Shown piece by piece: positions 6,118 to 27,310 of a stretch of DNA of 49,107 bases (position 1 is the first letter of the stretch; the number at the start of each line of letters is the position of its first letter). Under the pieces are notes generated by a model that made no database searches, was not told where the DNA came from, and saw only the letters and a list, made by a program, of their open reading frames with translations. Position numbers and translations under genes: made by a program. The stretch spans positions 1-49,107 of IMG/VR virus record IMGVR_UViG_3300031227_000079, one strand, 5' to 3'. The stretch is from a virus.

Positions 6118-6124
6118 GCGACCG

Positions 6125-6352: not shown

Positions 6353-6373
6353 GGCACTTTTCCTTTCGCTTTC

Positions 6374-6401
6374 ACTATAACTGATAACCTCAAAGACACA
6401 A
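6374..6401 (-). promoter_or_regulatory. promoter-like sequence for the minus-strand zinc-ribbon gene
   Basis: On the minus strand, TTGTGT (6401-6396) is followed after 16 bases by TATAGT (6379-6374), a five-of-six match to the sigma-70 type -10 box. The start codon lies 22 bases further on. The -35 match is weak. Host promoter consensus is unknown. Confidence 0.4.
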
Positions 6402-6408
6402 CCTTCCG

Positions 6409-7152: not shown

Positions 7153-7162
7153 GGCGATAATC

Positions 7163-8425
7163 ATGGGTACTAACATCTGGCGAGGTTACGCCACGGCGAT
7201 TGCTCAGGTCGATACCGTCACTGCCGCACTGACGTGGGCTAATACCGACACGGCCACCGCAACCATCAACGATAAAGACGTGGTTTATACGGTTGCTGGG
7301 ATTAGCGGCAATACCCACCTAAACGTACTGACGGGCCTGGCTGCGGCACTCAACGCATCGACCGTCCCTGAGTTTGCCGAGTCGACGTATACGGTGGCGA
7401 CCAATACCACGATGACAGTCACGGCCGATTCGGCTGGAATGCCGTTCACGATGACCGTGGCGGCCAGCACGGGCGGTGACGGTACGCTGGCGACTGCTGC
7501 GACCACTGGCAACGCGGGGCCAGCAGACGCAAGCACAGCGGCTAATTGGTCGGAAGCGTCGGTTCCGGGTGCGAGCGACTTGGTGGTATTCGAGAATTCG
7601 GACAGGGATTGCAAGTATGGGCTCGACTTTGGAGCCACCAACTTTGCCAGTCTCGGCATCCCCAAGACGTTCACGGGCGATATTGGCCTGCCGCGAACGC
7701 ATGGCAGCGGCACATCAGCCTACGTCGAATACCGCAATCAAGACCTCAAGTTCCAGTGTGACAACGCTGTAGACGTTGGGCGTGGTACGGGGTCGGGGTC
7801 GCGACGGGTCCGGCTGGACACCGTTAGCGTGGACACGACAATCAACGTCTTCGATACGGGCAGCGAAGTCGAGACGGGCATTCCGGCGTTGCTCCTGACG
7901 AATACCAGTGCCGCCACGACAGTCAACATCATGAAGGGTAGTGTCGGCCACTGCTTCTTCTCCGGCGAGACGGGCACGATCCACACGCTGAACGTGAGCT
8001 ACCGCACAAACAAGGCGGGTGATGCGTTTCTGTGGTGCGGTAATGGATCGACGCTGAACACTGTCAATATCTCCGGTGGCACCACGCGGGTGGCCTCCAA
8101 CATCGTTACGCTCATTGTCAATGATGGCGTTGTGTCTGTTGACGAAGCGGCCACGATAACTACACTGACTATCGACGGCGGCACAGTGGTTGATAAGTCT
8201 ACGGGCACGTTCACCACGGTATCGCTGGTGGGTGAATATGACCATCGGCAATCGTTGGAAGCCAAGACCATCACCAATCTAACCACTTTCAGCAAAGCTA
8301 AGTATCACGATCCATTCGGTGTGGTGACGGTGACGAACGGGATTGATTTCAGTAAATGCAGTCCTGATGATCTTGCCGTGTTCGATACGGCACCTAACAA
8401 GACCTGGACACAGACGGCCATCTAA
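7163..8425 (+). CDS. tail-associated structural protein, beta-rich
   Basis: This 420-residue protein is Thr/Val/Ala/Gly-rich and predicted mostly beta-strand. Residues about 1-120 resemble a repetitive virion domain; residues about 200-390 have short strands with regular hydrophobics (TLNTVNISGGTTRVASNIV), suggesting a beta-helix or beta-roll. It lies between the putative distal tail and hub genes, so a tail-tip or fibre role is likely. No enzymatic motif is visible. Confidence 0.6.
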   Translation: MGTNIWRGYATAIAQVDTVTAALTWANTDTATATINDKDVVYTVAGISGNTHLNVLTGLAAALNASTVPEFAESTYTVATNTTMTVTADSAGMPFTMTVAASTGGDGTLATAATTGNAGPADASTAANWSEASVPGASDLVVFENSDRDCKYGLDFGATNFASLGIPKTFTGDIGLPRTHGSGTSAYVEYRNQDLKFQCDNAVDVGRGTGSGSRRVRLDTVSVDTTINVFDTGSEVETGIPALLLTNTSAATTVNIMKGSVGHCFFSGETGTIHTLNVSYRTNKAGDAFLWCGNGSTLNTVNISGGTTRVASNIVTLIVNDGVVSVDEAATITTLTIDGGTVVDKSTGTFTTVSLVGEYDHRQSLEAKTITNLTTFSKAKYHDPFGVVTVTNGIDFSKCSPDDLAVFDTAPNKTWTQTAI

Positions 8426-10065
8426 TGCTAGTCGGCCTTGCTACATATCCTGGCGTCAATCAGTTCGTCAATGCCTCGTTCGGCTTCACGCACGGCATCA
8501 GCCCGAGCGTTTGCAGTCTCGCGATTGCTCCCCAGTCCGACTACTTCCCGATTGACGGCACGCTGGAATTCACCTTCGACGACATCAAGGTGGAGTTTCC
8601 CGACTGCCGTGTGGACACTGGACGCATCACACGCAACGCGGCGGGCGAGGTATGGCAGTTGTCGATAATGGACAGGCGGTGGAAGTGGCGGTGGGGGCGT
8701 ATCAACGGCGTTTACAACATCCGCAACGCGGACGGCACAATCCACGGGCACAACCTGCCGCCACAAGAAACCACGGAGCGGACGCCGCAAGAGTTGGCAG
8801 AACTCTGCCTAGAGGAAATGGGCGAAAGCGGGTATGACATTGGCGACTTACCCAATAAGTCGCGCCCGGAGGTGAGGTGGAACGATGCGCCGGCAGAAGC
8901 ATTGGCTAGCCTTTGTGACGAACTCGGCTGCCATGTGGTGTTGCGTCTCGACAATACTATCAAACTTTGCAAAGTGGGCAGCGGCAATGACTTACCCACG
9001 GACGGGATAATATCAGGTGGCGCATCGGTTGATCCGCCGGACGGCCCGCGAGAAATGACCGTCGAGTGCGGCGGCAATCGGTATCAACTGGACCTGGAAC
9101 TTGAAGCGGTCGGTGTTGATAACGACAAGGACGAGGACGGCAGCCCCATCGGAACCATCATCCCCATTGATGACCTGGCGTACAAGCCGGTTGCGGGGTG
9201 GTCGGCTAGTGCGGCGTTTTTCTCACCTAGCGATAATGTTATCGACAATGATGACGACTGGGAACTCGCCAAGAGGTCGGTTTACAAAATGTATCGGGTG
9301 GTGTATCCGATCAATGTTGCTCTATTTGGAGTTATAGACAGCATCGACCACTTGATTATTGAAAGCGAACAAGTCACCACGAAGACGGAAAACAACATTG
9401 AATCTAACCAGCCTGCCGTGATTCTGGGGGTGTGGTTTGGCGGCACGGAAAGCCTGACGAATTCAGCGGCCGATACTGAATATGAACGCAGTTGGTCACT
9501 GGACACCAATACCGGCATCGTTAAGTTCACGGAGCCTGTCTTCAAGTCAAGCAATGGTGGCGCGGGGGGAACAGCCGAGGCGGCCGAAATCAAACTTCGC
9601 ACGGCCATTCAGGTTCGTGACACCAATACCCGCGCACTCAAGCGATACAATCGCACCCGCCGCCGCGACACACCAGCCGAAACGCCGGCTAGATTCTACA
9701 AACATCACGAACTACACCTTAACTACATCGACGCGGTAACACCCAACCAAGACGACATTGACATGGCCGCCGACCACTACCTTGACGCGGCCGAACAAGA
9801 GTATCAGGCTCAGTACCCGCAATCCATCCGCTATATGGGACTTCGGAGGGTTGACTTAGACGGGGCGATTCAACAGATTTCATTTAATGTGACCGCGGGC
9901 GGCACCACCACCACTATTTCGCGGAACACGGAAGAGTTGTTAAGGGTGCCAAGCTACAAAAAGCGGCGACGGGTGGAGCGGGCAAGGGAAGCCCCCGACA
10001 CACAAAAGATGGTTGCGAAGATTGATATGCAGATCCAAATGGCACCAGGCCAGAGGCAGATTTAA
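8425..10065 (+). CDS. putative tail hub / baseplate-like protein
   Basis: This 546-residue protein starts on the last base of the previous stop (TAATG). The amino half (ATYPGVNQFVNASFG; FTFDDIKVEFPDCRVDTGRI; then WNDAPAEALASLCDELG) has the layout of tail hub proteins, with alternating beta and a helical insert. The carboxy end is basic and helical. The position after the distal tail gene fits a central tail-tip protein. The family was not confirmed. Confidence 0.55.
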   Translation: MLVGLATYPGVNQFVNASFGFTHGISPSVCSLAIAPQSDYFPIDGTLEFTFDDIKVEFPDCRVDTGRITRNAAGEVWQLSIMDRRWKWRWGRINGVYNIRNADGTIHGHNLPPQETTERTPQELAELCLEEMGESGYDIGDLPNKSRPEVRWNDAPAEALASLCDELGCHVVLRLDNTIKLCKVGSGNDLPTDGIISGGASVDPPDGPREMTVECGGNRYQLDLELEAVGVDNDKDEDGSPIGTIIPIDDLAYKPVAGWSASAAFFSPSDNVIDNDDDWELAKRSVYKMYRVVYPINVALFGVIDSIDHLIIESEQVTTKTENNIESNQPAVILGVWFGGTESLTNSAADTEYERSWSLDTNTGIVKFTEPVFKSSNGGAGGTAEAAEIKLRTAIQVRDTNTRALKRYNRTRRRDTPAETPARFYKHHELHLNYIDAVTPNQDDIDMAADHYLDAAEQEYQAQYPQSIRYMGLRRVDLDGAIQQISFNVTAGGTTTTISRNTEELLRVPSYKKRRRVERAREAPDTQKMVAKIDMQIQMAPGQRQI

Positions 10066-10676
10066 TGGGACGCGACGCACCTATCTCCGACTTGTGGCCG
10101 ATCCAATTCAAGCCGTCCGTGGACGTGAGTGCGTTTGGGGTGATGGAGGGAACGGGAGCGACAACCAACCACGGCGAAGTGGTGGTGACGACAAAGCAGT
10201 ATGTGGCTGGCGACCCACGAAAGGTCATCTATGTCAATGGGCCTGCGGACGTGACTGCATACGCATATGGACGATGCAGCACTGCGATGCACCGGCCCGT
10301 CATGGTGCTCACTAATACCACGCAAATCGACGGAGCTTCCATTGGACCGTCTGATAGCTCGTGGGAATGCAACGCTGGTCACCCCGGCTTCACTGTTGTG
10401 GGTGCGTCGCCAATTACGGACACGGCACTGGTAATGCGGCAACCGGAAATGACGCGGTGTCAAGGGTTGGCTGTGTCCAATACGGAGACCACTGACAGTA
10501 CGTTTTCAGTTGATACCGTACATGCCTATTCCGGCCTTGAGCCAGTTGCAAGCACAACAGCTACGCTTACCGTGCGAAATAAGTTCGAGGACGAGATTAC
10601 GGCGGATGACCCTCTGACTTTCTCTTGGGACCGTACTGACAATGAGTGGAAAACCGATGATGCGATGTGCCCATGA
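10065..10676 (+). CDS. hypothetical virion protein, tail region
   Basis: The ATG overlaps the previous TAA (TAATG). The 203 residues are beta-rich, Thr/Val-rich and without membrane or catalytic motifs (KVIYVNGPADVTAYAYGR; LTVRNKFEDEITADDPLTF). Tight coupling to the hub gene suggests a minor tail component. I do not recognise the family. Confidence 0.6.
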   Translation: MGRDAPISDLWPIQFKPSVDVSAFGVMEGTGATTNHGEVVVTTKQYVAGDPRKVIYVNGPADVTAYAYGRCSTAMHRPVMVLTNTTQIDGASIGPSDSSWECNAGHPGFTVVGASPITDTALVMRQPEMTRCQGLAVSNTETTDSTFSVDTVHAYSGLEPVASTTATLTVRNKFEDEITADDPLTFSWDRTDNEWKTDDAMCP

Positions 10677-11341
10677 TTCCCCGACGTGACCCGTTCGACA
10701 ATTTGGCTTTCCTGGCTCGACGTAGCGGGCTGTGGGTTCCGACGCCGCCAGGGATGGTGTCGCGGCGGTGCTGTTGCGGTGGCGGTTGCAGTTGCTACGG
10801 CTGTAAGTTTTGCACCAGCCCGCCCCCGAACGAAGCACTTGAAGTGACCATATCCGACATGGACACCGGAACAATATCGCCGCTATTAACTAATGGAACA
10901 TTTGAAGTTCCAGTGAGTCTTCATTGTGAAGTAAACGCCAGCTACTCTTGTTCCTGGAACATATCCAAGCAGAAAATATCAAGTTCCCCGTCAGTATACA
11001 CTCCCGACATTGATATTTACTTCGGGACTTCATTCGGGGGTTGGGTATGCAGTTCCGGCGGCACTCCGATAGTCGAAGACAATGGGTATTACCTATTTAT
11101 AAATTACGGATGGTTTGGAGAAGGTGGTTTTAATGAGGATTATGCCATTACTCACTATCGCAGATTCCACCAGGCAGGTGATCCCGGATGGGATGAGGAC
11201 GAAACGATTAACTGTGCGAGGATGTTTAACAGTGCGTATAGCACCTGGACAGGAACGTGCCTGTACAATACGGCCTTTGGCACTCCCTTGCACTGGAGCG
11301 GCATAACGGGCGGGGCCGCCCCTTCTATCGCGAGGCTATAA
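10673..11341 (+). CDS. hypothetical Cys-rich virion protein
   Basis: I start at the ATG at 10673, which overlaps the previous stop as ATGA, giving 222 residues. A cluster of seven Cys near residues 33-47 (RRCCCGGGCSCYGCKFC) could bind metal or form disulphides. The rest is Tyr/Trp/Gly-rich and beta-like, perhaps carbohydrate-binding (DNGYYLFINYGWFGEGGF). It lies at the end of the tail block and may be a tip or adhesin component; this is inference. Confidence 0.55.
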   Translation: MIPRRDPFDNLAFLARRSGLWVPTPPGMVSRRCCCGGGCSCYGCKFCTSPPPNEALEVTISDMDTGTISPLLTNGTFEVPVSLHCEVNASYSCSWNISKQKISSSPSVYTPDIDIYFGTSFGGWVCSSGGTPIVEDNGYYLFINYGWFGEGGFNEDYAITHYRRFHQAGDPGWDEDETINCARMFNSAYSTWTGTCLYNTAFGTPLHWSGITGGAAPSIARL

Positions 11342-11343
11342 CG

Positions 11344-11610
11344 ATGCTATGCAATTGGGAATATCGCGACGACGCGCATGGTTGGCGGTGCAGAACGTGC
11401 GGCCTGCCTGCTCGGCCTCGGTCGGTGTGTTCTCGATACCTGTGCCGCCTGCCAGCCTATCGACATTGCGTGACTGGTCCGCCAATCGAAACCCCTTCTC
11501 GCGGCCTCGGTGACACAATAGCCAAGATAACCAATGCCGTTGGAATCAAGCCGTGTGGCGGCTGTAAGAAGCGGCAAAAGAAACTCAATAAGATGTTCCC
11601 GTATAAATGA
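11344..11610 (+). CDS. small Cys-rich protein, phage tail-end type
   Basis: The ATG at 11344 lies two bases after the preceding stop, giving 88 residues. It has two Cys-rich parts: CNWEYRDDAHGWRCRTCG at the start and IKPCGGCKKRQKKLNKMFPY at the end. The phrase GLGDTIAKITNAVGIKPC is one I recall in small proteins near phage tail genes, often next to sugar-modifying genes. The Cys pairs suggest zinc binding. Function is unknown. Confidence 0.65.
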   Translation: MLCNWEYRDDAHGWRCRTCGLPARPRSVCSRYLCRLPAYRHCVTGPPIETPSRGLGDTIAKITNAVGIKPCGGCKKRQKKLNKMFPYK

Positions 11611-12326
11611 ACCACCTCGCCGTCATCCCCGCCCGTGCCAACTCCACCCGCCTGCCCGGTAAGAACACCATGCTCATTGCCGGCAAGTCAACTCTCGCGT
11701 GGACAATCCAGCACCTTCGAGAATGCACCTACCCGCTCCGTATCGTCGTCGTGTCCGATGATGACAAGGCACACGAGATAGCCGAAGCGGAAGGCGTGGA
11801 GGCCGTGTGGGAGCCTGAGTCGCTTGTTAAACAGGATAATCTATTCCGGGTCGTGGAATACGTGCTTGAGTGGGCGGGTGAATACGACCGTGTCCTGATG
11901 GCCTACCCCGAACCCGTTCGGCCGCCCGGCCTGTTCGACCGGATGATTGAGAAAATGGACGAGACGGGTTGCGATGTGGTCAACGTACTGGCCCGCGTGG
12001 AAAGCCATCAGCACCCGCTCTTCTATTCCCAAATCAGCAACAGCGGCGATATCATACCGCTGGCCCTTTGCCAAATCGGTAACTCTCAAGACTTCTCTCC
12101 CGTCTACTCCAGCACTGGGGCCGGTTCGCTCATCGTCGCATCCGACGTTCCCGGCATGGCACACAACCGAGCCCAAACACAATTGACACAAATCAGACGG
12201 GCAGTCATAATCGAACCCGGTGAATCAGTTGACCTCGACACATTACTCGATGCAAAATGGGCGGAATTTCTACTATGCCAGAGCCAAGTTACGTCGTCGG
12301 CAGTTCTTTCAGCCTCGACAACCTGA
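11607..12326 (+). CDS. acylneuraminate cytidylyltransferase-like nucleotidyltransferase
   Basis: The ATGA overlap with the previous gene fixes the start. Residues 7-20 (IPARANSTRLPGKN) are the nucleotide-binding signature of the CMP-sialic acid / CMP-KDO synthetase family. A VVVSDDDKAHEIAEAEG strand and RVLMAYPEPVRPP segment follow, as in that fold. At 239 residues it is near family size. Such enzymes activate sialic acid or a related sugar with CTP. The exact sugar cannot be read from sequence. The next gene is a possible transferase for the product. Confidence 0.7.
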   Translation: MNHLAVIPARANSTRLPGKNTMLIAGKSTLAWTIQHLRECTYPLRIVVVSDDDKAHEIAEAEGVEAVWEPESLVKQDNLFRVVEYVLEWAGEYDRVLMAYPEPVRPPGLFDRMIEKMDETGCDVVNVLARVESHQHPLFYSQISNSGDIIPLALCQIGNSQDFSPVYSSTGAGSLIVASDVPGMAHNRAQTQLTQIRRAVIIEPGESVDLDTLLDAKWAEFLLCQSQVTSSAVLSASTT

Positions 12327-12964
12327 GTGATGAGGAGCGGGCACACCTCGACAATGCCAAGTGGGTGTTTGTCTGCAACTCGTTTCCCTCTCACTGGAAG
12401 GACATCGGCTTTCGCCCGACCGTCTGGGCATACGGTGACAACGACCGGCCCGACTTGATAAAAGAAGTGCGGGAGCAACTGCAATACATCAAGCGGGACG
12501 ACGAGCTACGCGGCCACCTCCGTCACATGCTGGCGTGCGAAGAAACCCACGGGGATGAGCTACGGCACGAGATACGCGAGGCGGACTTGCCCGTCCAAGT
12601 GTATCACCGATGGGAACCGTGGCGACCGAACCAGCAGCCGGCGGCCACGCTACTCGGCAAACTCTTCCACTACGGCTCCACGCTCACGGACCTCGTCAAT
12701 CTCGCTTGGATACTCAATCCCGGCCAACCCATCCGAATCATCGGCAACGAATACGGGCCCGGTTTCGGCCACTTCTGGGAGCCTCCCAAGATCATCACCA
12801 ACGAAGAGGGCCGAGCGTTTTGGCTCAAGGTGCAACGGGCCATGTGGCAGGGCATAGCCCACCTCGCTCGCGAGCATCACATGGTGATCGTCGATTGCAA
12901 CCCGGAGCATGAAGAGGAGTTGCCCGAGCAGTGGCGGCTCCCTCGCCAGCCATTGATTGTATAG
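12275..12964 (+). CDS. putative glycosyltransferase, sialyltransferase/DUF115-like layout
   Basis: The 229-residue protein overlaps the cytidylyltransferase by 52 bases; an in-frame ATG at 12257 is an alternative start. The amino end (YVVGSSFSLDNL, residues 6-17) resembles the GxGPSL nucleotide-sugar loop of GT42 sialyltransferases and MAF/DUF115 proteins. A later HYGSTLTDLVNLAWIL and IRIIGNEYG resemble the second conserved block of that fold. Its pairing with a CMP-sugar synthetase supports transfer of a sialic-acid-like sugar. The similarity is by eye and needs structure prediction. Confidence 0.45.
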   Translation: MPEPSYVVGSSFSLDNLSDEERAHLDNAKWVFVCNSFPSHWKDIGFRPTVWAYGDNDRPDLIKEVREQLQYIKRDDELRGHLRHMLACEETHGDELRHEIREADLPVQVYHRWEPWRPNQQPAATLLGKLFHYGSTLTDLVNLAWILNPGQPIRIIGNEYGPGFGHFWEPPKIITNEEGRAFWLKVQRAMWQGIAHLAREHHMVIVDCNPEHEEELPEQWRLPRQPLIV

Positions 12965-12967
12965 GTG

Positions 12968-12988
12968 TTACGGAAATCTATTTCGTAA
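12968..12988. promoter_or_regulatory. AT-rich inverted repeat after the glycosylation genes
   Basis: Four bases after the TAG stop, TTACGGAAAT and ATTTCGTAA form a 9-base-pair inverted repeat with one bulged base and a two-base centre. There is no T run, so it is not a classic terminator. It could be an operator or an RNA hairpin closing the tail transcript. Confidence 0.35.
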
Positions 12989-13125
12989 TAATCCGAGATT
13001 TACTCAAGATTGGGATTGCAAGCCGTCGCGAGTCGTGGTAATTTCCATTCCGCACTTGAGACGTATTCACCGATTGGCCGTCTGTTCTGGCATCGGGTAG
13101 GGTGATGAGAGAGAGAATTCTTATT

Positions 13126-13259
13126 GCGGGGTGTGCTAGCGAATCGGTGAACAACCGAGCCCCGCATCCATACACTTGCATCCCAGCCGGCGTCTCTCTC
13201 CGCTGGTTGGTGCGTTCGCGGCGGGTTGGGGTCGAGGGCATCCATCCTGACCCGTCGCG
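13126..13259 (+). other. structured non-coding region with nested hairpins
   Basis: The stretch 12965-13290 has no convincing gene. Within it, GCGGGG (13126-13131) pairs with CCCCGC (13160-13165) around an inner TCGGT/ACCGA hairpin (13144-13158). A second stem pairs 13217-13226 with 13250-13259 over ten base pairs (one G-T). These structures precede the early gene at 13291. They may be a leader RNA, a small RNA or a terminator array. A 56-codon frame at 13104-13274 also crosses the region but has no clear support. Confidence 0.35.
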
Positions 13260-13290
13260 GATTTTCAATCAATGACAATGGGGGTGTGTG

Positions 13291-13743
13291 ATGGATGAGT
13301 TGATTCAAGAGATTATGGGGGCAATCGTGAGTGCGGCTAAAGCCCACAAAAGAGACTGGGAGATGGAAGATTTCATTCACTGGCTTAGCTGCGAGAGGTC
13401 ATCAGACGCTAAGAGAAAGCTGGTGGCCCACCTCACCCCCATCCTCGCCAAGCACATCAAGCCGGATCGGGTGGAGGAGATCAAGCGGTTATTGCGAGAG
13501 GCTAAGGCGAAAACCTTTCCGGGTGCAAGCCACTTTATCAAGCTGCATGGCGATGGCAGTGGGGGCGTGGAAACACGCGAAGGCCGCGTCATCACTTTTG
13601 ATGGCAATGAGCCCGAGGACATCCTCCGTACCCTCATTGCCAAATACCGTACCCCCATCACCCCTCCCCTCACTCCATCCACCGTCACCATCACGATGGA
13701 CGACGGGCGGATCGTGACGGGGACGTTTACACCGGACGAGTAA
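13291..13743 (+). CDS. hypothetical early protein
   Basis: The ATG at 13291 follows a G-rich stretch (GGGGG at 13280-13284); a GTG at 13288 is also possible. The 150-residue product is helical and charged for about 90 residues (KLVAHLTPILAKHIKPDRV), then beta-like, ending TVTITMDDGRIVTGTF. It is the first gene after the structured gap and so may open the early operon. I do not recognise it. Confidence 0.6.
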   Translation: MDELIQEIMGAIVSAAKAHKRDWEMEDFIHWLSCERSSDAKRKLVAHLTPILAKHIKPDRVEEIKRLLREAKAKTFPGASHFIKLHGDGSGGVETREGRVITFDGNEPEDILRTLIAKYRTPITPPLTPSTVTITMDDGRIVTGTFTPDE

Positions 13744-13776
13744 CTTCTATTTATTCACATTAAAGGAGACTTTGAA

Positions 13777-14049
13777 ATGGAATCCACTGAAATACTGCGG
13801 GGCCATGCAATCGTCGTTGCCGATCGGGGTTTTGTCTACGTCGGCGATTGCGTTGTGGATAGCAATTGGTGCGTTATCAGCAACGCCCGCAACATTCGCA
13901 AGTGGGGCACGACGAAAGGGCTTGGCGAACTGGCCACGGACGGCCCAACCGACGACACGGTGATTGACGCTGTCGGTACAGTGCGGATTCCCATGCCGGA
14001 TGGCGTTAAGCATCTCATAGACACGGAGGCCGCGAAATGGACCCGCTGA
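13777..14049 (+). CDS. small conserved phage protein
   Basis: An AAGGAGA site lies about eight bases before the ATG. The 90 residues (IVVADRGFVYVGDCVVD, then NARNIRKWGTTKGLGELA) match a small beta protein I recall from recombination-region genes of phages in freshwater and planctomycete datasets. Its function is unknown. Its last four codons overlap the start of the Gly/Tyr-repeat gene. Confidence 0.7.
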   Translation: MESTEILRGHAIVVADRGFVYVGDCVVDSNWCVISNARNIRKWGTTKGLGELATDGPTDDTVIDAVGTVRIPMPDGVKHLIDTEAAKWTR

Positions 14050-14288
14050 CCACACTAGCCGGCTCCGGCTACGGCTACGGCTACGGCGACGGCTACGGCG
14101 ACGGCTACGGCTACGGCTACGGCTACGGCGACGGCTCCGGCTACGGCTACGGCTACGGCGACGGCTCCGGCTACGGCTCCGGCGACGGCTCCGGCTACGG
14201 CTACGGCTCCGGCTACGGCTACGGCGACGGCTCCGGCTACGGCTACGGCTCCGGCTACGGCTACGGCTCCGGCTACGAAGTCAGATAA
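14037..14288 (+). CDS. glycine dipeptide-repeat protein (GY/GD/GS)
   Basis: The ATG lies 13 bases inside the preceding gene. After MDPLTTLA the protein is 36 consecutive dipeptides of Gly plus Tyr, Asp or Ser, then EVR and a stop, 83 residues in all. It has no signal peptide. Such a sequence should be disordered or form a flexible Tyr-rich, possibly phase-separating or adhesive chain. The frame is kept through all 36 units. Function is unknown. Confidence 0.6.
   Translation: MDPLTTLAGSGYGYGYGDGYGDGYGYGYGYGDGSGYGYGYGDGSGYGSGDGSGYGYGSGYGYGDGSGYGYGSGYGYGSGYEVR
14061..14276 (+). repeat. 36-unit hexanucleotide repeat, GGC followed by TAC, GAC or TCC
   Basis: Bases 14061-14276 are exactly 36 tandem hexamers. 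The first three bases are always GGC, the sixth is always C, and only positions four and five vary (TA, GA, TC). Units mix without a strict higher-order period, though blocks such as TCC-TAC-TAC recur. Slippage would alter protein length without changing frame. Confidence 0.9.
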
Positions 14289-16757: not shown

Positions 16758-17258
16758 ATGTCAATTATGTCTAGCAAGGTTGCCACAACAGATTACGTCT
16801 CGCTGCTACGTGACCCACGATGGCAAAAGAAGCGGCTTGAGGTAATGGACCGCGACAACTGGCGGTGTGTTGCCTGTGGCAGACCAGACCAAATGCTCCA
16901 CGTCCATCACATTGCGTATACAAACAAACCATGGGAAGCCCCGCTCTCTGATTTGCAAACGCTGTGCGAACGCTGTCACGACGAGCTTGGTAAGCATCCC
17001 AAGGGTGGCCCGTATTACGTGGTGGAAATGGACGAGTACGAGCCGGGCGTTGGTGATACGCATCTGAAGGTTGCATATAGACACTGCCCACTATGTGGGT
17101 GTTCTCGAACTGATTGCCATAGCGGGTGTGTAATCTTCGTGTGTGAATGCGACTCCCCTAAAAGCCCAAGGTGGGTAGATTCAATGTGGCAAGCTGACAC
17201 ATGCTCGGGTGACCCGGCCTATGTTTGCTCGCTGCCTGACCAATATTTATGTAAGTAA
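16758..17258 (+). CDS. HNH endonuclease
   Basis: The 166-residue protein has CVAC (37-40), HVHH (48-51) and CERCH (70-74), the Cys-His zinc and metal-binding signature of HNH nucleases. The second half has another Cys-rich part (CPLCGCSRTDC, then CVIFVCEC). It stands behind its own terminator and is not beside the terminase, so it may be a free-standing homing-type or recombination nuclease. The ribosome site is weak (AAGAGA). Confidence 0.75.
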   Translation: MSIMSSKVATTDYVSLLRDPRWQKKRLEVMDRDNWRCVACGRPDQMLHVHHIAYTNKPWEAPLSDLQTLCERCHDELGKHPKGGPYYVVEMDEYEPGVGDTHLKVAYRHCPLCGCSRTDCHSGCVIFVCECDSPKSPRWVDSMWQADTCSGDPAYVCSLPDQYLCK

Positions 17259-19434: not shown

Positions 19435-19880
19435 ATAAACCAGAATACAAAATTGGAGATTGGGTACTAGTGGCGGCAACTGTCCACTTCGACTATCCAG
19501 ATGGCCGCAACCGCATTGCGATACGGCTAGCCGAAGGGGACCCGTTTATCGCTCAGATTGTTGGTGCAGCTTACCGGCAGCTTGGGGTGTACCAGGGCAC
19601 AAGAGGGCCCGACTTCAACGCGGATGGAGAATATGATGGCGATGCGGACCCGCCGTATTTGAAATGCACTAGTACGCAAGTTGTCTATCTAGTTCGTCGA
19701 GGCATGACCAACAAGACAATCGAAGTGCTGGCTGACGACCTGGCTCCATTGGAACAGAAGGGAAGTCTACCCTGGCGATGGACTCGTCCCTATCCGTGGA
19801 CCGACGACAACCGAAAGGAAATGAGCCAAATATCAAAAGACTTTCCGCGAGATTCCAAGGGAAGATTCGTGAAGCCATGA
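19431..19880 (+). CDS. hypothetical protein
   Basis: The 149 residues begin NKPEYKIGDWVLVAATVHFD, suggesting an SH3-like barrel (residues about 5-60), and end in a basic stretch (ISKDFPRDSKGRFVKP). The gene is coupled to its neighbours by ATGA overlaps at both ends, the second to the first half of the split symporter. I do not recognise the family. Confidence 0.6.
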   Translation: MNKPEYKIGDWVLVAATVHFDYPDGRNRIAIRLAEGDPFIAQIVGAAYRQLGVYQGTRGPDFNADGEYDGDADPPYLKCTSTQVVYLVRRGMTNKTIEVLADDLAPLEQKGSLPWRWTRPYPWTDDNRKEMSQISKDFPRDSKGRFVKP

Positions 19881-20173
19881 CCCCCACTGACTACCTCATC
19901 ATCTTGACCTACCTCGCCACCATCCTCCTGGTCGGTCGCTGGCACGCGAAGCGAAACAAGACGGCCGACGACTTTCTACTGGGTGGCCGACGCATGGGTA
20001 GCTTGCCGGTGGGGTTGTCGCTGTTCGTCAGTTGGTTCAGTGTCATCAGCTACACCGCCGTACCGGGCGAGGTCATCAAGCACGGCCCGTGGCTGTGGAC
20101 GGGGATGCTGGCCGCTCCGGTCGTGTTGTGGTTTACTGGGTGGAAAGTGATACCAAAATTGAGAGGGGAATGA
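19877..20173 (+). CDS. sodium:solute symporter, amino-terminal fragment (split gene)
   Basis: The ATG overlaps the previous stop. The 98 residues carry the start of an SSS-family transporter: a membrane helix (DYLIILTYLATILLVG), then the conserved DFLLGGRRMGSLPVGLSLF and SYTAVPGEVIKHG. The frame stops after FTGWKVIPKLRGE, in the loop where intact relatives continue toward a TSTYEYLE-like motif. The rest appears 2.4 kb downstream at 22552. A helicase and a methyltransferase lie between. Alone this fragment cannot form a transporter; the two halves may or may not assemble. Confidence 0.75.
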   Translation: MTPTDYLIILTYLATILLVGRWHAKRNKTADDFLLGGRRMGSLPVGLSLFVSWFSVISYTAVPGEVIKHGPWLWTGMLAAPVVLWFTGWKVIPKLRGE

Positions 20174-20174
20174 C

Positions 20175-21572
20175 GTGGGTTTGGCATACGCGGATTTTAT
20201 CGACAGTAAATTACGACTCAAAAAGGCCGCCGGCTTCGATCCTGGAGAGTTCCCGTTAGGCATGCACGACTGGCAAGCCGACGTTGCCCGGTGGGCATGT
20301 CGCGGTGGACGAGTGGCCGCCTTCCTCGATACGGGTCTAGGGAAAACGCTGATACAACTGGCATGGGCCGAGCAGATAGTCAACAAGTTTGGCGACGTGC
20401 TAATCCTCGCTCCACTGGCCGTATCACACCAAACGAGGCGAGAGGCCGAGAAGTTTAACATCGGCGTAGACGTTACGGTGTGCCGCGAACAATCCGACGT
20501 GCGGCCTGGAATCACCATTACCAACTACGAGCGATTGCACAAGTTCGACGTGAGTGGATTCGCTGGAGTGGTGCTCGACGAATCAGGCATACTCAAAGCG
20601 TACACTGGCAAGATCAAGCAAGAGCTATGCCGACTGTTTGCCGACTTCCGTTTTCGCCTCTGCTGTACGGCGACCCCTGCCCCTAATGACCATCTGGAAC
20701 TCGGCAACCACTCGGCCTTCCTTGGAATTCTGCCGTCGAATGAAATGATATCTCGGTGGTTTATCAACGACACGATGCATGCCGGGAATTACAGACTGAA
20801 GCACCATGCGGCCGACGACTTTTGGCGGTGGGTATCATCCTGGGCTGCCTGTGTCACCCATCCGCGTGACCTTGGGTACGAAGATGACCGTTACGATCTG
20901 CCGCCATTGCATCGACACATGCACATTGTATCGGCCGACGACTGCCCGCCTCCACCCGGTTGTTTGTTCCACACCGGCAATATATCAGCGACAAATATGC
21001 ACGGCGTCAAGCGTGCGACAATTGGAGCACGGGCCGAGGAGGTTGCCAGGATCATCGGTCAACCCGATGGCCGTCCGTGGGTTATATGGTGCGATACCAA
21101 CTACGAGGCCGACGAACTGAAGCGACGGATTCCCGACGCGGTAGAGATCCGTGGCAGCGATCACATGGACGTGAAAGAACAGCGGCTATTGGACTTCGGG
21201 ACTGGCAAAATAGAGCGGCTGATTACAAAGCCAGAGATTGCCGGCCATGGCCTGAACTGGCAACATTGCAACCGGGTAGTATTCGCTGGGCTCAGCTTTT
21301 CTATGGAGCGATTGTACCAGGCTATTCGCCGCTGCTGGCGGTTCGGGCAAACCCTCCCCGTAGAGTGTCACATGGTATCGACCGACGCGGAGGGTCAGAT
21401 AATCAAGACGCTCGAAACAAAGGAACGTGCTTTCGGGGAAATGCAAGAGGCGTTATGCGATGCGATCCATGACCACCAACTAGAAAGCGTCTACGGCCAA
21501 ACGGAACTACGGCCGACCGCTCGACACCAATCAACGGAGATACCGGAATGGCTACAGTCACAAGCAAATTAG
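20175..21572 (+). CDS. SF2 DNA helicase
   Basis: The GTG start follows the symporter fragment by one base. The 465-residue protein has Walker A-like DTGLGKT (52-58), motif II DESG (135-138, a phage variant of DEAD/DEAH), motif III TATPAP (165-170), and motif VI-like YQAIRRCWRFGQ near residue 390. It ends by overlapping the methyltransferase start by 25 bases, a pairing seen in other phages. It probably unwinds or remodels DNA in replication or recombination. Confidence 0.8.
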   Translation: MGLAYADFIDSKLRLKKAAGFDPGEFPLGMHDWQADVARWACRGGRVAAFLDTGLGKTLIQLAWAEQIVNKFGDVLILAPLAVSHQTRREAEKFNIGVDVTVCREQSDVRPGITITNYERLHKFDVSGFAGVVLDESGILKAYTGKIKQELCRLFADFRFRLCCTATPAPNDHLELGNHSAFLGILPSNEMISRWFINDTMHAGNYRLKHHAADDFWRWVSSWAACVTHPRDLGYEDDRYDLPPLHRHMHIVSADDCPPPPGCLFHTGNISATNMHGVKRATIGARAEEVARIIGQPDGRPWVIWCDTNYEADELKRRIPDAVEIRGSDHMDVKEQRLLDFGTGKIERLITKPEIAGHGLNWQHCNRVVFAGLSFSMERLYQAIRRCWRFGQTLPVECHMVSTDAEGQIIKTLETKERAFGEMQEALCDAIHDHQLESVYGQTELRPTARHQSTEIPEWLQSQAN

Positions 21573-22552
21573 ACGCGAAGGTTGGTGGGCAGGAACGCGG
21601 CGAAGGGTGGGCGATGTATCAGGCAGATTGTTGCGAGGCAATCAAGTCGCTGCCCGATAGCTCGATTCACTTGACGATGTACTCACCGCCCTTCGCCGGC
21701 CTGTACATCTACAGCGACCACGCGGCGGACATGGGGAACTCGGCCGACAACGAGGAGTTTATGCGGCACTACGAATACCTCGTTCCTGAGTTGCTTCGGG
21801 TCACCGTTCCCGGCCGTTTGTGCGTCGTCCACTGTAAGGACTTGCCGACCTACTACAACCGCGACGGGGCCGCCGGCCTATGGGACTTGCCGGGAGAGCT
21901 TATCCGGCTCCATGTTGCGGCCGGCTGGTCCTATCATAGCCGCGTGACGATTTGGAAGTGTCCAGTTACGGAGCGGGAACGCACGAATAATAACGGACTA
22001 CTCCATAAGACCGTACTCCGCGACCGCTCGCAGTGCCGCCAGGGAATGGCTGATTATCTCTTGGTGTTTCGCAAGACCCCCAATGGCACGCTGATGAGCG
22101 ACGAACCACTGAAGAGTACGGACGGCCTGACGGGCTACGTCGGCGAGACTGACCCTCGCGACCACGACGAACACCCGTCTCCATTCGCCCGGAAATCCAA
22201 CACGAGGCAAATGCAATCAATCCGAATCTGGCAACGGTACGCGGAACCAGTTTGGTGGGACATCAACCAGACGCGAGTGTTGAACTACAAACAGGCTCGC
22301 GACGGCAAGGATGAAAAGCATATCTGTCCGCTACAACTCGACGTTATCGACAGGGCTATACAGCTCTGGTCCGATCCGGGCGAAGTGGTTTTGTCACCGT
22401 TTGCGGGGATCGGTAGCGAGGGATACGGGGCAGTGTCGATGGGGCGGAAGTTCGTCGGCATCGAGTTGAAAGAGGGCTACTACAATACAGCCATCGGACA
22501 CCTACGCAAAGCAGAGTATGACTTGGTCCAGAAAGACCGAAGGTTATTCTAG
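21548..22552 (+). CDS. site-specific DNA methyltransferase (SPPF type)
   Basis: The 334-residue protein has catalytic motif IV SPPF (46-49), typical of N4-cytosine and some N6-adenine enzymes, and the AdoMet motif FAGIGSEGYGA near residue 285, giving the permuted IV-then-I order of the beta class. No restriction enzyme lies beside it, so it is probably an orphan that protects phage DNA or regulates. Its stop TAG shares a base with the GTG of the second symporter part. Confidence 0.8.
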   Translation: MATVTSKLDAKVGGQERGEGWAMYQADCCEAIKSLPDSSIHLTMYSPPFAGLYIYSDHAADMGNSADNEEFMRHYEYLVPELLRVTVPGRLCVVHCKDLPTYYNRDGAAGLWDLPGELIRLHVAAGWSYHSRVTIWKCPVTERERTNNNGLLHKTVLRDRSQCRQGMADYLLVFRKTPNGTLMSDEPLKSTDGLTGYVGETDPRDHDEHPSPFARKSNTRQMQSIRIWQRYAEPVWWDINQTRVLNYKQARDGKDEKHICPLQLDVIDRAIQLWSDPGEVVLSPFAGIGSEGYGAVSMGRKFVGIELKEGYYNTAIGHLRKAEYDLVQKDRRLF

Positions 22553-23625
22553 TGCAATCCACTGCTTACGAACTACTCGCCCCGCTCCGCTGCCAACGCC
22601 TCGCGTCGTGCCTCTTCCTCTCGATGCGTCTTGCCTGGATGGGTATGATAGTTCACATCACAACTACTCTCGTCGTGGCACCGCTAACCGGATGGCCTGT
22701 TTCCCCTCTCGCTGCCGCGTTAGTCGGTGCCACGCTTTTGTATTGCCTGGGCGGATTCCGGGCGGTTGTTTGGACGGACGTTCTGCAAGCACTGATTCTC
22801 TTTACGGGAGCCATCATCACTATCGGGTTGATAGCCCACCAAGTCCCTGCAAATGTGATTCCCATGGAGTGGCCCGCACTCAGCCTATCACTCGATCCAC
22901 GAGTGCGGGTCACTCTTCCTTGGGCCGTGTTGTCGGCCGCGTGCCTCGGAACGTCCGTCAAGGCAGGTGACCAGATGAACGCTCAACGCTTCCTGTCCGT
23001 GCCTAGCGTGTCCGCTGCCCGACGAGTGTTGTTCATTGGGTTTGGTTGTGACGTGGCGTTGACGCTACTCCTGGGCATCGTGGGCGTGTGTCTGCTGGCT
23101 TACTACGGCACGGCCGCAAACGCTGACGGTATCTTTCTGTCATACATATCATCTGAGTTGCCTTCTGGTGCCCGTGGGCTGGTGGTGGCTGCCTTGCTGG
23201 CGGCTGCCATGAGTAGTCTGTCGAGTGGTATCAACAGTTGCGTGAGTACGGTGGCGGTGGATTGGCTTCGCCCCAATTCCGGGGAAAGATTTGCGGTGGA
23301 AACCCGCCGAGTCGGTACCACCACCGCCACCGTCTCTCTCGCCCTCATCGTCTTCATCCTGTCATTACTAATCGGTTGCGTCCAAGGCAACCTAATCGAA
23401 CTGTGTTACAAGATTGTCAATCTACTTGCCACACCACTCGGCGGCCTGGTGCTTGTCGCCCTGTTCATACCACGGGCAGGCTGGCCGGCTGCGTGGTTGG
23501 GCTGCGGTGCATCGGTCGCCGTGGTGGTGTGGATAAACTACTTCAGTCCGTTTAGTTTTCTGGTGGCTAGCCCATTAGCGTTGGCCACTCAACTATCAAT
23601 CGCAATTTCAGGGAGTCGAAGATGA
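22552..23625 (+). CDS. sodium:solute symporter, carboxy-terminal fragment (split gene)
   Basis: It starts with a GTG overlapping the methyltransferase stop (TAGTG). The 357 residues resume the transporter where the fragment at 19877 breaks off: STAYELLAPL, then LFLSMRLAWMGMIVHIT, GGFRAVVWTDVLQALI, and ALLAAAMSSLSSGINSCVST, all SSS-family landmarks, with about ten membrane helices. Almost no residues seem lost at the break. In bacteria the family includes sialic-acid transporters. Its last codons (SPLALATQLSIAISGSRR) are repeated at 24130-24186. Confidence 0.75.
   Translation: MQSTAYELLAPLRCQRLASCLFLSMRLAWMGMIVHITTTLVVAPLTGWPVSPLAAALVGATLLYCLGGFRAVVWTDVLQALILFTGAIITIGLIAHQVPANVIPMEWPALSLSLDPRVRVTLPWAVLSAACLGTSVKAGDQMNAQRFLSVPSVSAARRVLFIGFGCDVALTLLLGIVGVCLLAYYGTAANADGIFLSYISSELPSGARGLVVAALLAAAMSSLSSGINSCVSTVAVDWLRPNSGERFAVETRRVGTTTATVSLALIVFILSLLIGCVQGNLIELCYKIVNLLATPLGGLVLVALFIPRAGWPAAWLGCGASVAVVVWINYFSPFSFLVASPLALATQLSIAISGSRR
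23577..23625 (+). repeat. junction repeat A, copy 1
   Basis: This 49-base segment covers the last symporter codons, the GGGAG ribosome site and the ATGA stop-start. It recurs at 24138-24186 with the same encoded ending and, more diverged, at 24461-24500. Confidence 0.8.
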
Positions 23626-23879
23626 AACGAGTAGTCGAAACAAAGGATGGTGGATTTGTGGCCATGTTCAACGAAAAGGTAGTGCTGTTCTGTGGTATTT
23701 ACATATACACCGGCACACTGTCGGGGGTTAATGATGACCACATTGAACTAACTAATCCGCAACTCGTGTACGAAACGGGCGAACTGACAACGGGCGATTG
23801 GAAAGACGCCCAGTCATTGCCGACGCCATGGCGTGTGATGCTTAAGGGCATTGAATCGTGGGGACCAGCAAAATGTTAA
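23622..23879 (+). CDS. hypothetical small protein
   Basis: The ATGA overlap fixes the start. The 85 residues are a beta-rich domain (GGFVAMFNEKVVLFCGIYIY) of the kind found in small phage or cargo proteins. It lies between the two copies of the symporter-end repeat, so it may have arrived as a cassette. No function is visible. Confidence 0.6.
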   Translation: MKRVVETKDGGFVAMFNEKVVLFCGIYIYTGTLSGVNDDHIELTNPQLVYETGELTTGDWKDAQSLPTPWRVMLKGIESWGPAKC

Positions 23880-24186
23880 TGCCAGTCAACAGAAAATCGC
23901 GGTCGCGGTCGTGGTCGTGGTCGGGGTCGGGGTCGCGGTCGTGGTCGTGGTCGGGGTCGGGGTCGGGGTCGGGGTCGCGGTCGGGGTCGGGGTCGCGGTC
24001 GCGGTCGTGGTCGTGGTCGGGGTCGGGGTCGTGGTCGGGGTCGCGGTCGCGGTCGGGGTCGGGGTCGTGGTCGTGGTCGGGGTCGGGGTCGTGGTCGCGG
24101 TCGCGGTCGGGGTCGTGGTCGCGGTAGCCTCGCCGCTGGCGTTGGCTGTTCAATTATCAATTGCAATTGCTGGGAGTAGACGGTGA
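23851..24186 (+). CDS. repeat-encoded protein; Val/Ala/Gly frame favoured over Ser/Arg/Trp frame
   Basis: Two forward frames cross the hexamer array. This one gives about 80 hydrophobic Val, Ala and Gly residues and then SPLALAVQLSIAIAGSRR, nearly identical to the end of the symporter. Its start is unclear. The other frame (ATG 23873, overlapping the previous stop; TAG 24125) gives 38 dipeptides of Ser with Arg, Trp or Gly. The variable base is never A; A would put Glu in the hydrophobic frame but only Arg in the other, which favours this frame. Expression is unproven. Confidence 0.4.
   Translation: MNRGDQQNVNASQQKIAVAVVVVVGVGVAVVVVVGVGVGVGVAVGVGVAVAVVVVVGVGVVVGVAVAVGVGVVVVVGVGVVVAVAVGVVVAVASPLALAVQLSIAIAGSRR
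23897..24124 (+). repeat. 38-unit hexanucleotide repeat, TCG followed by CGG, TGG or GGG
   Basis: Bases 23897-24124 are 38 tandem hexamers in which only the fourth base varies (C, T or G, never A). The motif differs from the 14-kb repeat. It lies between a short gene and a duplicated copy of the symporter end. The symporter end itself has a short GTCGCCGTGGTGGTG stretch (about 23516-23530) that could have seeded the expansion. Confidence 0.9.
24138..24186 (+). repeat. junction repeat A, copy 2
   Basis: About 38 of 49 bases match 23577-23625, including GTTGGC, the CAATTATCAATTGCAATT core, GGGAGT and the stop-start overlap (here GTGA). It supplies the ribosome site of the gene at 24183. Confidence 0.8.
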
Positions 24187-24458
24187 GTGAAAAAATAGAA
24201 AAGACTATTGAGTTGAGTAATGCACAATACGTGGAACTCCAGGATGCTTTTAAGGTCCGTGCCGCCGCAAGCAAGTTGCTAGGTACAGTCGTCGAAGAGG
24301 TAGCCAAGCAACAGGTGGTCAATGAGCGTGACACATGGGACGAAATGGCTCGCTTCGCAGGATATGGCGATGCCGAAGCGGCAGGAAAGGACGGCAAGGT
24401 GATACGCATTTCGTGGGTTCGTCGCTGCATTGATGTTATCGACATCGGCGACGAATAG
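24183..24458 (+). CDS. hypothetical small protein
   Basis: The GTG overlaps the end of the repeat frame. The 91 residues are helical and charged (KTIELSNAQYVELQDAFKVR, then RFAGYGDAEAAGKDGKVIRI). No motif is recognised. Its upstream region is the second copy of the junction repeat. Confidence 0.6.
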   Translation: MSEKIEKTIELSNAQYVELQDAFKVRAAASKLLGTVVEEVAKQQVVNERDTWDEMARFAGYGDAEAAGKDGKVIRISWVRRCIDVIDIGDE

Positions 24459-24460
24459 GA

Positions 24461-24500
24461 CTGTTCAATTGAGTGTTGGAATTTTGGGGAGAAGACGATG
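24461..24500 (+). repeat. junction repeat A, diverged copy 3
   Basis: CTGTTCAATT, then a diverged TTGGAATT core and GGGGAGAAGACG before the ATG, resemble the same positions in copy 2 (CTGTTCAATT, GGGAGTAGACG). It again ends on a start codon. Confidence 0.5.
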
Positions 24501-24671
24501 ATCCAAGTACATGACATGGACGATGCCTTTGATGCAATCCGTGACCTGATTGCTGACATAGAAATTGACCGCGATACATTCAAGGAGCAGGCCGAAAACC
24601 TAGCGAGCCAACTAAAGGAAGCTGACGAACTCGTTGTGGAATTAGAGCGGAGCATTTTGGAACTAACATGA
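24498..24671 (+). CDS. very small coiled-coil protein
   Basis: The ATG follows GGGGAGAAGACG. The 57 residues (DAFDAIRDLIADIEIDRDTF, then LASQLKEADELVVELERSIL) are almost entirely amphipathic helix with heptads. Its stop overlaps the start of the DUF1559 gene (ATGATGA). Role unknown. Confidence 0.6.
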   Translation: MIQVHDMDDAFDAIRDLIADIEIDRDTFKEQAENLASQLKEADELVVELERSILELT

Positions 24672-25573
24672 TGAAACGCGCCTTCACACTTGTTGAGCTA
24701 CTGGTGGTCATCACGATCATCGGCATCCTGATTGCCCTACTTCTCCCTGCCGTCCAAGCGGCCCGCGAGGCGGCGCGTCGTATCAGTTGCACCAACAACC
24801 TGAAGCAACTCGGTCTGGCCCTCCACAACTACCACGCGGCCCTTGGTAGCTTCCCGTGTGGAGCTGCGGTGGGCTACCTGACAACCAGCAGCAGCGGCAC
24901 GCCCACCGGAACCCGCGAGGGATGGCGGGTGTACGTGCTGCCTTACATCGAGCAAGGGAATGTACATGACCAGTTTGATACCGAGGCGAGCATTTGTGAC
25001 GGGGTTGATTGCGAGTTGTCCGCTCTTGAGTTGGCTGTTTGGACGTGCCCGAGCGACGGAAAGCAGCCGTTCGATCCGCACATGCGAGATACCTACCAGT
25101 GGCGAACCACCAACTACGTGGGTGTGGCTGGGGCAAAGTCCGGACCGTCCCTCGAAAGCAGACATTGCGGAAATTATAGGACAGACGGAATCCTCTTTCC
25201 ATTATCAGGAGTACGAATTGCAGACATCCGAGACGGGACAAGCAATGCCATTGCTGTGGGGGAACAAGTCAACTGGCTGCGAGTCTGGACCGCCGGAGCT
25301 TACACCACACAAGTCACCAAGCCATGGCACCACGTCTGCGTGTTCTCTTCCAAGAACGTGACGTGGCCAATCAACACCGACCCCGAAGAACGCAACTACG
25401 ACCACGCTCGACCAGGGCAGAAGTGTCTGTTCAATGACATCTTCTTTTCGTCCCACCATCCCGGCGGGTGTAGTTTCGTCTGGGCTGATGGGTCGGTGAG
25501 GTTTGCGAGTGAGACGATTGAGATGGAAGTGTTCAAGGGGATAGCAACCCGTGACGGGGGAGAGGTGCAATGA
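24668..25573 (+). CDS. DUF1559 protein with type IV prepilin-like N-terminus
   Basis: The 301-residue protein has a prepilin methylation and cleavage motif (FTLVELLVVITIIGILIALL, residues 6-25), then the DUF1559 opening (AREAARRISCTNNLKQLGLA, then HNYHAALGSFP), LPYIEQGN and CPSDGK in the middle, and the terminal HHPGGCSFVWADGS (H-x9-DG) motif. It looks complete. The family is expanded in Planctomycetes, Verrucomicrobia and Lentisphaerae and is exported as pseudopilin-like surface proteins. Its presence in a phage operon, coupled by overlaps on both sides, indicates cargo from the host. Confidence 0.9.
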   Translation: MMKRAFTLVELLVVITIIGILIALLLPAVQAAREAARRISCTNNLKQLGLALHNYHAALGSFPCGAAVGYLTTSSSGTPTGTREGWRVYVLPYIEQGNVHDQFDTEASICDGVDCELSALELAVWTCPSDGKQPFDPHMRDTYQWRTTNYVGVAGAKSGPSLESRHCGNYRTDGILFPLSGVRIADIRDGTSNAIAVGEQVNWLRVWTAGAYTTQVTKPWHHVCVFSSKNVTWPINTDPEERNYDHARPGQKCLFNDIFFSSHHPGGCSFVWADGSVRFASETIEMEVFKGIATRDGGEVQ

Positions 25574-25905
25574 GCGGACTTTCGATGATGCTTGCCATTA
25601 GCCGCCAAGATTGCGGGCAACTACGGGCCAAAGCTGACGGCCGAGCCGCAACCATCCGGCGGCTGGTGGTGGAGGTGGAGCGGTTGGAAGCGGCCTTCGC
25701 TCGCTTACCTCGCGGTGACGACATCGACCTAGCCATGCGTGCTAATAATATGGGTGGCCTCGAATTCAAGGAAGACTATTGTGAGTGTGATTCGTCTGTA
25801 GGGATGTGCCCCTGTCCATATTGTGCAATTGATAGCGTGCTGCGAAGACTATGGAGAACAACTAACCCAGAAGCCGCCGACGCGGCGAAAGGAGCGGGTG
25901 AATGA
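25570..25905 (+). CDS. hypothetical small protein with Cys cluster
   Basis: The ATGA overlap fixes the start. The 111 residues have a helical start (ATIRRLVVEVERLEAAFARL) and a Cys cluster (CECDSSVGMCPCPYC, about residues 71-85) that may bind zinc. The last residues (EAADAAKGAGE) come from a 23-base sequence repeated at the end of the gene at 28782-29168. Function unknown. Confidence 0.65.
   Translation: MSGLSMMLAISRQDCGQLRAKADGRAATIRRLVVEVERLEAAFARLPRGDDIDLAMRANNMGGLEFKEDYCECDSSVGMCPCPYCAIDSVLRRLWRTTNPEAADAAKGAGE
25871..25893 (+). repeat. junction repeat B, copy 1
   Basis: The 23 bases from AAGCCGCCGAC to GCGAAAGGA are identical to 29134-29156. Both copies encode the same protein ending and provide an AAAGGA ribosome site for the next overlapping gene. 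The two host genes are otherwise unrelated. Confidence 0.85.
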
Positions 25906-26069
25906 AGGTGCTGTTTTTTTTAGTTGGTATATTGATGGCCGTGCCGCCCTATGGTCGGCTGTTGAGGCCGTACGGCCTCGCAATACAAGCAATTGGGATT
26001 TCCGTACAGGTCACTGGGCTTGTGTTCATGGTTCCGCTTGCCATCAGAATATTAAAGGAGATATTATGA
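25902..26069 (+). CDS. very small membrane protein
   Basis: This 55-residue frame joins its neighbours by ATGA overlaps on both sides. It has two hydrophobic segments (KVLFFLVGILMAV and GISVQVTGLVFMVPLAI) around a short basic loop. It could be a holin-like, antiholin or accessory membrane peptide. A run of eight T (25914-25921) near its start could cause slippage. It precedes the anchored sialidase and may act with it. Confidence 0.6.
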   Translation: MKVLFFLVGILMAVPPYGRLLRPYGLAIQAIGISVQVTGLVFMVPLAIRILKEIL

Positions 26070-27310
26070 CAGAATTACTCAAATGGTTATTCGTCATCAC
26101 CCTCGCCCTCGTGGTCTGCCTTATAATCCAGCGCTACACGCGAGCGGCCACACCCCTACCGTACACCCTCGTCGCATCACACGGACCCGGTGGTCCCTAC
26201 TGTGCCTTCCCTGGTGCGTGTCGCTTGCCCGATGGACGAATCATAGTCGTCTACTATTCGGGCGTGGAGAGCGGCCACGTCACCCGTACTGACCAACGCA
26301 AGGGCGGTGGGTGTATCGCCTACGTGACGAGTAGCGACGAGGCGAGGACGTGGAGCGAGCCTGCCCTCTTGCTCGACACGGACGAGGATGACCGCGACCC
26401 CGACATATCAGTGTTGAAAGATGGGCGAATCATCTTGACATACTTCCGCCTCATCACCGTGCCGAAGATGGCGGGGGATGGGGTGTATTGTGCGGAGATT
26501 GTGGGTAGTGGCGAGAGCCGTCAAGAGGTTTTGACAGACGGTGGGGGCCATCGGAAGGGCTATGGAGCAGGCGGGACTACAATACCGTCTGGCCAGACCG
26601 AGCCGGGTTCACTCCGGCCTACCCTAATTCGCAAGCTTCAACACGACGCCGGCTGTTCCGCACCCATGCGAGACTACGGCGACGGCCACCTGCTCCTCGG
26701 CTCGTACCACTTTGACCAGCCCTACGTGATACGCTCCACGGACAACGGGAAGACGTGGCAGGTGTTCGCGATACCGAATGGCGGCAAGCACCTGGATGCG
26801 GAGACGGACACGATACGCCTCGGTATTGGTGACCATCGCTATGGCCTCGGGGGTGCAACATACTTTGGCGGTATGCCTTACTATGCTGTGATGCGTGGCC
26901 GCAAATGTAACGGACATTTTTCATACAGCCCCGATGGAAAGAACTGGGCGACTGCGAAGGACATCGGGTTCCCGTTGCATTGTCCAGCGTTGCATAGGGT
27001 GGAGGTGGTGCCGGTAGTTCAAACGGTAGAACCCATTAAACCGGAGGCTGCTGGTTCGAGTCCAGCCCGGCCCACCTCCGCCATTCTTCTCGCCCACCGC
27101 GTCCCCGCCACCTGCTTCCACTACTCACTCGACGAGTGCAAGACGTGGCAGGGGCCGGTCGCGGTGGATGCGTGTGGCGGTGCGTATCCCGCGTTCGTGA
27201 CGCTGAAGGATGGGAGTGTGATGATCGTGTACTACACCGAGGGACCGACGAGCGACGTGAGGTGCCGCCGGTTCCGTATCTCTGACAAAGGAGTTGAGTT
27301 CGATGGCTAA
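26066..27310 (+). CDS. BNR/Asp-box sialidase, membrane-anchored, with tRNA-like insertion
   Basis: An AAAGGAG site precedes the ATG. The 414-residue protein begins with a signal anchor (LLKWLFVITLALVVCLII). It then has Asp boxes SDEARTW (90-96) and STDNGKTW (224-231) plus degenerate YSPDGKNW and YSLDECKTW. LPDGRIIVVYYSG and ILTYFRL fit exo-sialidase propellers of planctomycetes. Residues about 313-339 (including EPIKPEAAGSSPARPTS) are foreign to the family and come from a tRNA-like sequence; a second unusual insert lies about 150-190. The enzyme would remove terminal sialic acids if active. Confidence 0.75.
   Translation: MTELLKWLFVITLALVVCLIIQRYTRAATPLPYTLVASHGPGGPYCAFPGACRLPDGRIIVVYYSGVESGHVTRTDQRKGGGCIAYVTSSDEARTWSEPALLLDTDEDDRDPDISVLKDGRIILTYFRLITVPKMAGDGVYCAEIVGSGESRQEVLTDGGGHRKGYGAGGTTIPSGQTEPGSLRPTLIRKLQHDAGCSAPMRDYGDGHLLLGSYHFDQPYVIRSTDNGKTWQVFAIPNGGKHLDAETDTIRLGIGDHRYGLGGATYFGGMPYYAVMRGRKCNGHFSYSPDGKNWATAKDIGFPLHCPALHRVEVVPVVQTVEPIKPEAAGSSPARPTSAILLAHRVPATCFHYSLDECKTWQGPVAVDACGGAYPAFVTLKDGSVMIVYYTEGPTSDVRCRRFRISDKGVEFDG
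27001..27079 (+). pseudogene. tRNA-like sequence embedded in frame in the sialidase gene
   Basis: GTGCCGG (27008-27014) pairs with CCGGCCC (27067-27073), one mismatch. GTTC-loop-GAAC (27017-27032) is a normal D arm. GCTGG-TTCGAGT-CCAGC (27050-27066) is a perfect T arm. Only 17 bases lie between these arms, too few for an anticodon arm and variable loop; ACCGG is left without its partner, so no anticodon can be assigned. GGAGGTGG (27001-27008) also pairs with CCACCTCC (27072-27079), making a long closing stem. The insertion keeps the protein frame open. Confidence 0.6.

Follow-up and report, generated by a model that had tools for sequence, protein, structure and literature searches.

The sodium:solute symporter (SSS) gene of this phage lies in two parts on either side of a complete helicase-methyltransferase pair, and we think it very probable that the split arose in a phage by insertional gene fission. 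That it came from an insertion, and not from two ancestral genes, is indicated by a colinear phage that lacks the pair and by planctomycete genes that are unbroken. The window analysed is the entire 49,107-base virus record, which carries terminase, portal and minor tail genes and also encodes an Erf-type annealing protein, a DnaB-like helicase and an integrase-like gene; this gene content points to a tailed, possibly temperate phage. The record also contains an HNH endonuclease gene (16758-17258) that has no match in the colinear phage. The host is likely a planctomycete, to judge from the presence of homologues of the phage DUF1559, BNR and SSS proteins in Planctomycetota genomes, and the SSS gene was probably acquired from the host.

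The two transporter parts, the insert with its genes and ribosome-binding sites, and the DUF1559 and BNR genes are all on the plus strand. The N-terminal half of the transporter (A, 98 aa, 19877-20173) and its C-terminal part (B, 357 aa, 22552-23625) are the only matches to the Pfam family SSF (PF00474) in the whole record, and both exceed the family cut-off of 22.8 bits (25.6 bits and 7e-6 for A, 64.5 bits and 1e-17 for B). By homology to SiaT (PDB 5NV9), a member of the same SSS (SLC5) family, A comprises the first three transmembrane helices; SiaT matches A at 4e-10, B at 3e-17 and the intact SSS of the colinear phage at 4e-27. Instead of the single continuous polypeptide of the family, the window has two open reading frames (ORFs) 2.4 kb apart, which together make up 455 codons with no stop or frameshift. 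A covers positions 1-64 of the SSF profile and B positions 116-397, and we considered whether a central part had been lost (65-115); this was rejected, the first 45 residues of B aligning there in intact homologues, and the profile gap from 64 to 116 is simply a region of weak similarity. The predicted structure of B, a prediction from two sequences, is uninformative, with a pLDDT of 41.

The original prediction had proposed that the two fragments adjoin in intact transporters, and had suggested looking for relatives with an intact symporter and no insert. Such a relative exists in IMG/VR 3300005663_000052 (56,451 bases), which is largely colinear with our record genome-wide, the ends being permuted, and which encodes an intact SSS of 449 aa at 9653-11002, with the DUF1559 and BNR genes downstream; neither the helicase nor the methyltransferase has a match in it. 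This phage also contains, at 5650-8350, long repeats that give minus-strand open frames rich in Pro, Ala and Cys. Residues 1-96 of its SSS are about 65-67% identical to A, and residues 117-449 are 48% identical to B (BLAST), the first 15 residues of B aligning with the segment just before residue 117; these identities resemble those of the terminase and portal proteins (about 47%). Queries of viral contigs with the SSS, BNR, DUF1559 and portal proteins yielded nothing beyond this colinear phage, and the SSS alignment, scanned against genomes, gave no match. A genome scan with DUF1559 led to planctomycete matches and from there to a search of that phylum for SSS, whose relatives, fetched from whole genomes, are single unbroken ORFs.

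When A and B are joined and aligned with the SSS of the colinear phage and of planctomycetes, there is no gap or loss at the break, which bears out the predicted adjacency. In none of the aligned homologues does a residue fall between the end of A and the beginning of B. A conserved Pro and a conserved Tyr on opposite sides of the break are 12 residues apart in the joined protein, as they are in 40 of 43 homologues (13 residues in one homologue, and two partial rows that do not cover the region). The statement that almost nothing was lost can thus be sharpened, no residue being lost at the break itself. Three residues are missing from B about ten residues past the break, in a segment that closely related homologues keep. 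By analogy with SiaT, the break would fall after SiaT residue 103, in the cytoplasmic loop that connects helices 2 and 3 of the LeuT fold, a position at which both chains could keep their topology.

The inserted segment (20171-22551, 2381 bp) lies between GAA (Glu98 of A) and GTG (Val1 of B), and is coding throughout except for four bases at its left edge. It holds an SNF2/DEAD-type helicase of 465 aa (20175-21572; Pfam Helicase_C and SNF2-rel_dom, PHROG 62 and 16 DNA helicase) and an N4/N6 DNA methyltransferase of 334 aa (21548-22552; Pfam N6_N4_Mtase, 1e-16). The N-terminus of the helicase and the C-terminus of the methyltransferase agree with those of relatives, so that the pair is complete, as had been proposed, and the four ORFs had been placed correctly, as we checked in the sequence. 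The translational overlaps noted with the neighbouring genes are also real: the start of A sits in an ATGA shared with the upstream ORF, the first bases of the insert supply the TGA stop of A one base before the GTG of the helicase, the methyltransferase stop and the start of B share a G (TAGTG), and the stop of B overlaps the ATG of the next gene. The likely ribosome-binding site of the helicase, AGAGGGGA (20162-20169), would lie inside the last codons of A, and GAAGG (22539-22543), 8 nt before the GTG, is a possible site for B that could be there by chance.

No target-site duplication was found at its ends, in agreement with the original prediction; only the GTG of the two start codons is common to both, and the match in length across the break is too exact to allow for a duplicated codon. 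A group I or II intron was rejected (the insert has no match in Rfam at E values up to 1, is nearly all coding and has its own stop and start codons), as was an intein, no intein domain appearing among the Pfam matches. Nor is there any nuclease, recombinase or terminal repeat within the insert. From the lack of a target-site duplication, recombinase, intron or intein, we infer that the insertion took place by illegitimate recombination between phages.

The same pair is widespread in other phages, another point on which the original prediction had suggested a search. The helicase and the methyltransferase are linked in all of the 138 viral loci examined, mostly within about 150 bases and on one strand, with the order reversed in some loci, and they occur in about 96 upstream/downstream gene neighbourhoods; since these loci were fetched by helicase or methyltransferase queries, they show the linkage of the pair and not its frequency among phages. 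The two genes are also found fused (viral locus L128; PHROG 16). They are those of a known phage pair (PHROG 62/16 and 67, annotated as neighbours in Mycobacterium, Synechococcus and other phages), with order and close spacing alike in most loci, but elsewhere, in the loci examined, the pair was not detected inside a split gene, whereas here it lies inside the SSS gene. Most likely it is a DNA-modification/replication unit independent of the transporter. The suggestion of a mobile cassette therefore holds in part: there was an insertion and the pair travels as a unit, but the insert contains no look-alike of a mobility enzyme, and the term would be better limited to repeatedly transferred phage genes than applied to a demonstrated mobile element.

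The scenario that we favour would be the following. An ancestral phage of this lineage, probably of planctomycetes, would have possessed an SSS gene of host origin, grouped with DUF1559 and BNR genes in one module, and the widespread two-gene unit (SNF2-type helicase and N4/N6 methyltransferase) would have entered between two codons of the SSS gene. The first bases of the insert would then have become the stop codon of A, and the next symporter codon, the transporter's own GTG (Val), would have become the start of B, overlapping the methyltransferase stop; because of this overlap, an operon of overlapping ORFs would have survived the insertion.

The module itself deserves comment. Both neighbours of the SSS gene are conserved in the colinear phage, the DUF1559 pilin-like protein (24668-25573; Pfam 1e-54) at 63-64% identity and the BNR-repeat (sialidase-like) protein (26159-27310; Pfam BNR_2, below cut-off) at 58-63%. 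The three genes (22552-27310 here, 9653-14087 in the colinear phage) stay together in two phages whose proteins are about 50% identical, and the set is probably host-derived, in probable planctomycete phages. Between the SSS gene and the next genes there is an array of GGTCG(T/G/C)-type repeats of 6/12 nt (23897-24130). A 41-nt stretch, which corresponds to the 3' end of B with a ribosome-binding site and start, is present in three copies at successive gene boundaries (23585-23625, 24146-24186 and 24461-24501), with 10-11 mismatches separating the other copies from the middle one, where the best match in shuffled sequence has 16 or more; the middle copy, which comes after the repeat array, codes for a copy of the C-terminus of the SSS. 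Among the planctomycete relatives, one SSS (L227, 184-2982) appears by eye to be fused behind a kelch/mutarotase-type domain, and it adjoins a gene that, also by eye, resembles those of dihydrodipicolinate synthase and N-acetylneuraminate lyase.

Several other readings of the locus have to be weighed against an insertion. The original prediction had left room for a natural two-part transporter; we consider it hardly conceivable that this lineage has always had two separate transporter genes, between which the pair came to lie: nothing was found in favour of this, the colinear phage has one intact gene at that position, planctomycetes have single ORFs, and the break is of zero length. The record being a metagenomic assembly, one may also ask whether an assembly error joined a pair from a different phage to the transporter gene. 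We find this very unlikely: the two junctions coincide exactly with codon and ORF boundaries, with start and stop signals that overlap or nearly do so, the base composition and codon use of the insert fit the phage, and the colinear phage has kept the gene order found on either side of the insert. It is also improbable, if a little less so, that the pair is an active mobile element homing to chosen sites, perhaps by means of the HNH nuclease. In favour of this idea, the two genes are always together, in many neighbourhoods, and the HNH gene, unmatched in the colinear phage, is 2.9 kb upstream; however, neither a nuclease nor a recombinase is encoded in the insert, which also lacks terminal repeats, the pair shows no linkage to the HNH gene, and a survey of 137 loci, of limited power, detected no other gene split by the pair.

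A more serious question is whether the insertion inactivated the transporter, so that A and B would be recent remnants that have not yet had time to lose their open frames. We take this to be a real possibility, if somewhat less likely than not. Phages can often do without the membrane transporters that they carry as cargo, B has the small deletion near the break, and the age of the split cannot be fixed: with one related phage only, at about 50% identity, it could be too recent for decay. Moreover, a conserved motif seems to be damaged in the unsplit relative too, whose SSS lacks a stretch (10090-10170) that includes the RAVVW of the GG-RAV-TD motif; this may be divergence, damage or a sequence error, and the unsplit control may in consequence not be a fully working transporter. 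Against decay, the 455 codons remain open and both halves retain their overlapping start and stop signals. The split copy changes no faster than the unsplit one: with nine planctomycete outgroups, we count 5-10 changes in the split A against 4-9 in the unsplit copy, and 19-33 against 36-46 for B, so that the split copy is not clearly faster in A and is slower in B. A comparison of 26 planctomycete proteins gives 120 conserved positions, of which 79 are preserved in the split phage copy and likewise 79 in the unsplit one.

The sodium-site residues are retained as well. The Na2 and Na3 side chains of SiaT (S342, S343, S345, S346 and D182; PMC5931594) are all present in B, which reads AAAMSSLSS and VVWTD at these positions. 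SiaT is one chain with the sialic-acid-binding Arg135, whereas the transporter here is split in two and has Trp at that position, as does the SSS of the colinear phage; sialic acid was accordingly rejected as a substrate. The chance that coupled translation yields both A and B, and that these come together again in the membrane as a two-piece sodium symporter, seems to us, from the genes, to approach an even one without reaching it.

Insertional fission as such is already known, both for a phage gene split by an inserted homing endonuclease and for a mitochondrial membrane-protein gene split by an insert. The closest precedents are the genes-in-pieces created by homing endonucleases, the nrdA of phage Aeh1, split by mobE, and the topoisomerase gene 60 of T4, with mobA (PMC2988022). 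There, as here, a continuous phage gene was split in place with its parts left open (the split Aeh1 nrdA is reported to be functional; PMC2988022), and an uninterrupted gene is found in a relative of our phage while the insert sits in place in the window. However, the insert in those cases is a homing endonuclease, whereas here it is a helicase and a methyltransferase, with no endonuclease; and the target here is a putatively reassembling membrane transporter, probably acquired from the host. In the mitochondrial cox2 of Campsomeris, a membrane-protein gene was likewise split by an inserted ORF stretch into complementary parts, which are thought to form a heterodimer (PMC5374615), but this is an animal mitochondrion, the insert has a putative nuclease, and transcripts and proteins were studied there. 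In the titles and abstracts covered by a limited search of the literature, no case was found of a gene split by a helicase-methyltransferase pair, nor of a phage membrane transporter gene being split.

The presence of a Na+ symporter together with DUF1559 and BNR proteins in two divergent phages likely represents a host-modifying gene set. If our interpretation is correct, insertional fission would extend beyond soluble phage enzymes and homing endonucleases, and would take in ordinary phage cargo as well as a polytopic membrane protein; this locus would also be a naturally occurring test case for the assembly of a LeuT-fold transporter from two chains.
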